Below are positions 15,488 through 17,174 of a stretch of 26,909 nt of DNA, piece after piece. Source of the DNA: a virus; the IMG/VR virus record IMGVR_UViG_3300033144_009183, positions 1 to 26,909 of that record; one strand, given 5' to 3'. Position numbers and translations under genes: made by a program. The notes beneath the pieces are model-generated. The model saw only the letters and a program-made list of their open reading frames with translations. It did not search any database and was not told where the DNA came from. Each line of letters starts with the position of its first letter. The stretch's first letter is position 1.

Positions 15488-17174
15488 TATCTTCTCCTTC
15501 ATCGGTTTTATCGACATCTTTTATTTCGCCGTCCATAACAACATTAACATCATGCTGCTCCTTCAATTGTCTAGCGTGTTCTCTTAATTTTGCCGAATAA
15601 GTTGAAGCATCATCCTTCATAGACGTAAATAATTTGGTTTTAGATTCCCTGGTTGCGACCATGCTTTTTAATATTTTATCCCGGCGGGCCTGAACCTTTG
15701 TTTTAACACTTAATGCAATATGTTCTTCTTTCCTTATCAACGCCTCGCCGGTTTGCTCATTGATGCCAACAACATTTTCCATGATAAATCCTTCAGTTGC
15801 CAAATAGGCATTCGCCCGGGCATTCAATATATCAATCTCAACAAGCTCCATAACTAAAGCCCTTTCAATTTTATCATCCCAATCTGCTTTCAACGATACG
15901 ATATACTCATCCCGCCATTTTTCCATATAAAGCTGCTCAAACGGACAATTATGAGTTGCAATTCCACCAGCAACATAAGTTTTATGTTTATCAACATCCA
16001 GTGAATAAACTAAACCCTTATAGTTTTCCTTTTTTACTGAAACCTCGACCCATTTTGTTTTTTCATACGTACTCCCATAGCCATATTCGAATTTACTTTT
16101 TTTATCCTCAAACGTCGGAACATCCATAACACCCGAAATAATATTACAAGCCCTTATAAACATAGGCCATTTAACATATGGGCCCATTTCAGGATCATTT
16201 GAAAATCTACCCTTTTTCCACATGGGATATTCAATTGAAAGACCCAAAGAATTTAGAAATAAATCATACACACCATCATCCTGCAATAAACTTTCATGAT
16301 GTTTTCGCATTTGTTCTGGTGTTGCCCATTTATACACACCATCCCATTTAGAATCAACTTTTCGCAAAGAATCAATAAAAGAAAGCCTACTTGTTTGCGT
16401 CTTTAATGAATAATATTCCTCTGCTAAATATGCCTCAGTATTTGTATTATAAACACCCAAAATCCACAATTTATCAGCATCTTCAGAAACAGCCCGTGAA
16501 GCAAAATTCATGTGCAATTTATGCCCATGTGTGCTATTTTTTATTCTATGAATTAATTTAGTTTTTCCTATCCTCCAAAAACGACCTCTTTTCATTAAAT
16601 AAACACAAAATTTGCCTATCGCGTTTTCATTAAATTTTGCTGCTGATATATGATCATAAGTTACTTTATGTGAATGATTATTTTTTGTTAATAATGTAAC
16701 AACACATCCATTAAATCCATGTGACGACATTGAAAAAGAATAACCCTTTTTTGCTCCTTGCCTACCTTGCACAAATACACCATGTTTTCTATCCCACCCT
16801 ATTAATCCGTGTTTAGACGGATTTAATTTTTCCACAGGAACATATCCATCCTGAATTGTGTATATTAATTCACCAGGGGGATGACAAAGATTTCCAAGGG
16901 GTGCTTTTTTCGCCGCTTGAAGAGGACATTGTGCCGCAATTGAACATGCGTCGCCCAAACACACCATGGGAACAGATTTAAAATCACCACTCCCATGGAA
17001 CCCCAAATATCTACCAATGTTTTTAATATCATCAGGTGTTAATTTTAAAGCTTTAACATAGTCCTCATCGCAAAATTTAATTAAATTACTAACATTCATA
17101 TTTTTAATTTCACTAACCTGTATAACACCCGACGGACTAATCGTTTGCAATTCTTTTGATTTCTTGTCTGACAT
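15480..17174 (-). CDS. Four-cysteine phage protein interrupted by an intein
   Basis: ATG at 17174 is chosen because GGAGG lies nine bases upstream; an ATG three codons earlier sits on top of that SD. The precursor is 564 residues. Removing the intein leaves a host protein of about 251 residues: an N-terminal helical part, a cysteine motif (Cys75, Cys80 and Cys86 counted from the upstream ATG, joined to the first Cys after the splice), and a long helical C-terminal half with a charged tail. After splicing the motif reads C-x4-C-x5-C-x13-C, which looks like a metal or iron-sulphur site. The protein lies upstream of the terminase region, so a small terminase or DNA-binding role is possible, but I cannot name it. 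Its start overlaps the endonuclease gene upstream. Confidence 0.75.
   Translation of the reverse strand: MSDKKSKELQTISPSGVIQVSEIKNMNVSNLIKFCDEDYVKALKLTPDDIKNIGRYLGFHGSGDFKSVPMVCLGDACSIAAQCPLQAAKKAPLGNLCHPPGELIYTIQDGYVPVEKLNPSKHGLIGWDRKHGVFVQGRQGAKKGYSFSMSSHGFNGCVVTLLTKNNHSHKVTYDHISAAKFNENAIGKFCVYLMKRGRFWRIGKTKLIHRIKNSTHGHKLHMNFASRAVSEDADKLWILGVYNTNTEAYLAEEYYSLKTQTSRLSFIDSLRKVDSKWDGVYKWATPEQMRKHHESLLQDDGVYDLFLNSLGLSIEYPMWKKGRFSNDPEMGPYVKWPMFIRACNIISGVMDVPTFEDKKSKFEYGYGSTYEKTKWVEVSVKKENYKGLVYSLDVDKHKTYVAGGIATHNCPFEQLYMEKWRDEYIVSLKADWDDKIERALVMELVEIDILNARANAYLATEGFIMENVVGINEQTGEALIRKEEHIALSVKTKVQARRDKILKSMVATRESKTKLFTSMKDDASTYSAKLREHARQLKEQHDVNVVMDGEIKDVDKTDEGEDNE
15948..16886 (-). mobile_element. 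Intein (313 residues) with GIY-YIG-like module
   Basis: The self-splicing element begins with Cys (CHPPGELIYT, block A). Block B follows, with the conserved Thr-x-x-His in GCVVTLLTKNN...KVTYDH. It ends with block F/G (LVYSLDVDKHKTYVAGG, then THN) before Cys+1 of the downstream extein (CPFEQLYMEKW). The penultimate His and terminal Asn are intact, so splicing should work. Between the splicing blocks, at precursor residues about 191-270, is a GIY-YIG-like segment: VYLMKRGRFWRIGKTKL, then WILGVYNTNTEAYLAEEYYS with the expected Glu. No LAGLIDADG motif is seen. The insertion site is immediately before the fourth cysteine of the host motif, typical of inteins targeting conserved functional residues. 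Confidence 0.92.

Follow-up and report, generated by a model that had tools for sequence, protein, structure and literature searches.

A predicted class-1 intein with a diverged GIY-YIG-type domain at a conserved cysteine of a phage protein

The stretch of viral DNA analysed here, called the window throughout, comprises 26,909 nucleotides (IMG/VR record IMGVR_UViG_3300033144_009183). On its minus strand it encodes a four-cysteine protein of the packaging region which is interrupted by 313 additional residues (Table 1). The open reading frame extends from 15480 to 17183; its probable start is the methionine of MSDKK at 17174, and a second in-frame ATG is found at 17183. A precursor protein identical to that of the 26.9 kb window record is encoded on a 203 kb viral contig (L001). 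Scans with Pfam, NCBIfam and PHROG gave no name for the extein. Two candidate functions, small terminase (PHROG match, E 0.047) and RNA methyltransferase (the annotation of the homologue ME3_9), were dismissed as weak matches. Elsewhere in the window, an HNH_3 endonuclease gene (20703-21119, minus strand, E 2e-11) stands among genes for tRNA-Thr, tRNA-Met and tRNA-Leu (20639-21329), with an overlap between its 3' end and the called tRNA-Thr.

Table 1. Features of the precursor gene, its intein and the adjacent gene (window coordinates)
Feature	Position	Strand	Basis
Free-standing DUF559/homing-endonuclease-like gene, overlapping the precursor 5' end	17137-17622	-	phrog_559, phrog_9084, DUF559
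Precursor gene, four-Cys packaging-region protein	15480-17174	-	ORF; alignment with the L003 homologue begins at MSDKK
N-extein	16887-17174	-	86% identity to L003
First three Cys of C-x4-C-x5-C-x13-C (codons 16959-16961, 16944-16946, 16926-16928)	16926-16961	-	invariant in five homologues
Intein, 313 residues, in frame	15948-16886	-	blocks, predicted fold, L003 empty site
Splicing block A, nucleophile Cys1 (codon 16884-16886)	16848-16886	-	Cys1 in 25/25 family rows
Splicing block B, T-x-x-H (T76-Y-D-H79)	16650-16661	-	H79 in 25/25, T76 in 24/25 rows
GIY-YIG-like nuclease module (VYL Y96; RIG R105-G107; R131; E156)	16392-16610	-	family alignment, AlphaFold, Foldseek, hhalign
Remainder of inserted domain (helices, ACNI..MDVP)	16104-16391	-	conserved across the intein family
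Splicing blocks F/G, end H312-N313 (Asn codon 15948-15950)	15948-16022	-	TIGR01443 match
+1 Cys, fourth Cys of the motif	15945-15947	-	sequence, H312-N313/C junction
C-extein	15480-15947	-	90% identity to L003

An earlier note, made from the sequence alone, had described the 313 residues as an intein with visible block A, block B (TxxH) and His-Asn/Cys junction. Its coordinates proved exact, and Cys1, T76/H79 and H312-N313/C were all located. The C-terminal intein model TIGR01443 (intein_Cterm) matches above its cut-off (19.5 bits vs 15.6), and Pfam Intein_splicing matches the precursor with E=3e-4, under its gathering score. An AlphaFold model of the intein, computed with the family alignment as input, reached a pLDDT of 88.3 and a pTM of 0.87, and Foldseek matched the whole model to mini-inteins of the PDB with a probability of 1.00 and a target TM of up to 0.80. 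In its predicted structure the intein has the HINT splicing fold and, judged by sequence, it has the features of a class-1 intein, i.e. Cys1, TxxH, a C-terminal HN, a +1 Cys and a precise in-frame insertion.

The host protein without the intein is present in a close relative, on a 22 kb viral contig (L003/L068). Its junction reads ...APLGKL/CPFEQ... (the slash marks the insertion point), and the alignment of window and L003 DNA breaks at the intein ends. The Moorella and Bacillus phage homologues of the host protein are also intein-less. For comparison with such homologues, the earlier note had named beforehand a conserved non-splicing domain as the outcome that would speak against an intein. 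That the 313 residues are such an extra domain of the host protein finds its sole point in favour in the open frame. It is ruled out because the close relative L003 has an exact empty site; the intein-less Moorella and Bacillus phage proteins and the occurrence of the same element in unrelated proteins likewise count against it, and its probability is negligible.

Tblastn with the whole precursor matched the intein of the UvrD-type helicase gp34.33 of phage SPO1, Streptococcus phage methyltransferases and others, and scans of viral and bacterial contigs added further members. C1, H79, Y96, R105, G107 and N313 are invariant in the 25 full-length aligned members, and R131 and E156 are each present in 24 of them. 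The hosts are UvrD-type helicases (with insertion mostly after VGDxxQ), ParB-linked DNA methyltransferases and the four-Cys phage protein. By profile search, the central domain was detected in 10 of 778 bacterial genomes, which represent the phyla of one cyanobacterial and one planctomycete genome, each time inside a helicase or methyltransferase intein. Every copy examined, in these 10 genomes and in the viral matches inspected, lay within an intein. The central module is common to an intein family which includes the annotated SPO1 gp34.33 intein, and is not peculiar to the window locus. The tree groups the inteins from the four-Cys gene in one clade (100/99), whichever Cys is occupied, and the methyltransferase inteins in another (100/99).

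Several members deserve mention on their own. A single UvrD helicase gene carries two inteins of this family at two motifs (L028:3147-4022 and L028:5001-5855). A longer form with about 60-100 additional residues past the GIY module occurs in L036, L046, L132 and the helicase intein of Escherichia phage JohannJBalmer (L049). On a Providencia rettgeri plasmid (L051, NZ_CP077319.1, near 18860-19312), an intein-bearing DNA methyltransferase is present as an open frame, with no gene in the plasmid table.

Inteins are usually described as carriers of LAGLIDADG or HNH endonucleases. For the window intein, a GIY-YIG-type segment had been claimed in place of LAGLIDADG, and the claim is borne out by the profile alignment, the predicted topology and the Tyr, Arg and Glu positions. 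The central domain follows the pattern (V/T)YLM, a short spacer, R(V/I)G, and further on R, WIL and EA-x3-E. The GIY half-motif, VYL or TYL, has its Tyr in all 25 rows, and the central Arg (R131) and the C-terminal Glu (E156) agree with the superfamily. The YIG half-motif reads R(I/V/L)G in all members, so that Arg replaces the Tyr. Several positions downstream are conserved, with no clear counterpart of the motif E Asn, a motif which can be missing within the superfamily. AlphaFold, given the family alignment, predicted the isolated domain with a pLDDT of 86.6 and a pTM of 0.84; its core runs strand, strand, helix, strand, helix. The remaining part of the inserted domain is possibly its DNA-binding portion.

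A profile comparison with GIY-YIG families, proposed as a check in the earlier note, gave a divided answer. As reference we used 27 sequences derived from PF01541 matches in other genomes, to which the family aligned by hhalign with a probability of 88.6 and a score of 33.2, whereas 60 column-shuffled references scored at most 14.7 (probability at most 2.1%) and the reversed control 9.3. With MUG113 sequences alone the match was weak (probability 28.6%), so that the PF01541 and combined sets carry the GIY-YIG claim. The models of Pfam and PHROGs, in contrast, were silent: no GIY-YIG match was obtained for any of the 27 family members, and scans with Pfam, NCBIfam and PHROG left the central domain unnamed. 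A profile search of PDB sequences returned chance matches only, and Foldseek with the isolated domain against the PDB listed no GIY-YIG structure among its matches, so that the fold was not recovered there. Against a library of viral predicted structures, the first three matches apparently belong to the same intein family (a helicase, a methyltransferase and one unnamed protein); they are followed by many proteins named as intron or GIY-YIG endonucleases, SegE-like ones included, with E values of about 0.04 or more. From the alignments and the predicted structure, we conclude that the central domain is a diverged member of the GIY-YIG superfamily, with Arg for the YIG Tyr.

Does the domain still act as a nuclease? 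It may have been retained as a structural part of a splicing intein, dead as a nuclease, and both the replacement of the YIG Tyr by Arg throughout the family and the failure of Pfam to recognise the domain would fit. However, this Arg is invariant rather than random, and the GIY-YIG enzyme R.Hpy188I is predicted to use Lys at the same position (PMC2630997). Moreover, no other part of the intein is as well conserved as the GIY module: in four of four comparisons it shows higher identity than the splicing parts (55-68% vs 35-57%) and lower dN, dN/dS being a rough measure here with dS near saturation. This strongest conservation fits selection on the nuclease. Finally, there are signs that the intein is passed from phage to phage. 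A dead nuclease is thus unlikely. The mobility is apparent from a comparison with other phage genes. In L010, TerL is 37% identical to that of the window, the exteins are 27% and 41% and the genes around the intein 27-49% identical, whereas the intein at Cys4 reaches 58%. The corresponding values for L011 are 32% (TerL), 28-32% (exteins) and 44% (intein). In L003, where TerL is 93% identical, the intein is absent. Because intein identity exceeds that of TerL and exteins in L010 and L011, and the near relative is intein-less, the history of the intein is probably not that of its phage. On these sequence comparisons, the intein is probably a mobile, putatively active homing element.

Mobility might also be provided from outside, by collaborative homing, if the DUF559/Vsr-like endonuclease encoded at 17137-17622 cut the site and mobilised the intein. 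Its gene is adjacent to and overlaps the precursor gene, and a homologue with 49% identity lies beside the intein gene of L010. Yet the endonuclease is also present in intein-less L003, whose empty site is uncut, and tblastn did not find it in the fetched flanks of intein-carrying L011 and L012. Since endonuclease and intein are not consistently found together, we do not take the former as the mobility enzyme. The neighbour is probably independent of the intein, and there is very little chance that it drives homing.

Further inteins were observed in these phages. The nearby gene at window positions 14068-14565 has an empty site, GYISWAKR/SGMP, where its homologues in L003 (L003:4714-6207) and L010 (L010:6847-8391) carry an intein that matches Pfam Intein_splicing above cut-off; the L003 intein has LAGLIDADG-like motifs. 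The terminase gene of L012 (L012:10346-10912) begins an apparent intein. The 203 kb contig has four intein matches (at 38.9k, 98.9k, 100.2k and 130k), two of them within a single frame of 2851 residues. Both the L012 phage and the 203 kb relative are intein-rich.

The C-x4-C-x5-C-x13-C spacing given in the earlier note, with the intein before the fourth Cys, is correct, and the +1 Cys is that fourth Cys. None of the four Cys varies in the five homologues that were aligned, which are 23-89% identical to the window protein and include intein-free ones. The extein alignment of these five members proved too divergent to scan the collection with; a scan with a closer set matched only three loci, and one with the Bacillus phage KLEB27-3 protein as query found none. 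One L010 gene harbours a pair of related inteins, which share 41% identity, one before Cys2 and the other before Cys4. L011 and L012 have one intein each, at Cys4, and Acinetobacter phage ME3 has a mini-intein without central domain at Cys3. Across phages, inteins thus occupy three of the four motif positions (Cys2, Cys3 and Cys4). Although its annotation reads RNA methyltransferase, the ME3 protein ME3_9 (L008:3239-4534) is the four-Cys protein of this phage, and its mini-intein is unannotated.

From the position of the intein the earlier note had argued that the putative metal site could not form without splicing. In this form the argument is not supported, because the intein itself begins with a Cys: the catalytic Cys1 occupies the place of the fourth Cys, and the precursor retains the complete spacing. 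This same arrangement would allow a regulatory switch, in which splicing is stalled, until conditions change, by metal or oxidation acting on a Cys cluster whose fourth member is Cys1. Other inteins are stalled by Zn binding at C1/Asn and by Cys oxidation (PMC6805012, PMC6195587), and the invariance of the four Cys and the inteins of relatives at Cys2, Cys3 and Cys4 agree with such a role. On the other hand, the nearest relative manages without an intein, and the helicase and methyltransferase inteins of the family sit at Ser or Cys with no such Cys motif seen at the junctions. The position is also explained by the need for a conserved site and a +1 nucleophile. We consider a switch distinctly improbable, and still more so its extended form, in which cluster-bound metal holds Cys1, the motif serves as a splicing gate, and phages have repeatedly taken up inteins at Cys2, Cys3 and Cys4 as packaging switches timed by metal or redox state. 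Most simply, the position is explained by a conserved Cys being a target that stays the same and at the same time supplying the +1 nucleophile that an intein needs.

Very probably, as sequence and models suggest, the element is a class-1 intein that splices in cis and whose two splicing halves are separated by a homing endonuclease domain of diverged GIY-YIG type. Once the precursor is translated, the 313 residues would be removed through the action of Cys1, His79 of block B, His312-Asn313 and the +1 Cys, and the exteins would join into a four-Cys phage protein of 251 residues. Alleles of co-infecting phages that lack the intein would be cleaved by the GIY-YIG module at the fourth-Cys codon, and the intein would be copied into the cut allele during repair. 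Such a site would be favoured because the Cys is conserved, so that the DNA to be cut stays constant, and because the +1 nucleophile that splicing requires is already in place. If true, the family adds a further nuclease fold to those captured by protein-splicing elements, puts a name to the mobility enzyme of the SPO1-type helicase inteins, and is a source of small intein-nucleases for use. The four-Cys gene, with three of four Cys occupied and two related inteins in the L010 gene, offers a clean system for studying intein site choice.

According to a survey of 2006, GIY-YIG nucleases were not then known from inteins (PMC1564403). Our phrase search of the open literature retrieved no paper on GIY-YIG inteins and no description of a GIY-YIG-type domain inside an intein, which is not proof of absence elsewhere; the SPO1 helicase intein itself is already annotated. 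That intein, in gp34.33 of SPO1 and also in CampHawk, SP82G and Goe phages, belongs to the same family over its full length (27.6% identity, E 6e-24) and has the same central domain, for which no classification was found in the literature examined; it differs in host gene and site. GIY-YIG homing endonucleases of group I introns and of the free-standing Seg type resemble the window module in profile, predicted core and Tyr/Arg/Glu positions, but the window module is encoded in cis inside the intein and has RIG for YIG. LAGLIDADG inteins likewise have a homing endonuclease inserted in a HINT splicing domain, whereas the window intein has no LAGLIDADG. In the split intein AceL NrdHF, a GIY-YIG homing endonuclease gene lies between the halves (PMC7891396); intein and GIY-YIG nuclease are associated there as well, but the nuclease is a separate gene, whereas the window nuclease is one domain within a contiguous intein. 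Haloarchaeal MCM has inteins at multiple sites, those studied with LAGLIDADG nucleases (PMC10643990), and shares with the four-Cys gene several close insertion sites in one conserved gene; in the window protein, these sites are the Cys of a single motif.
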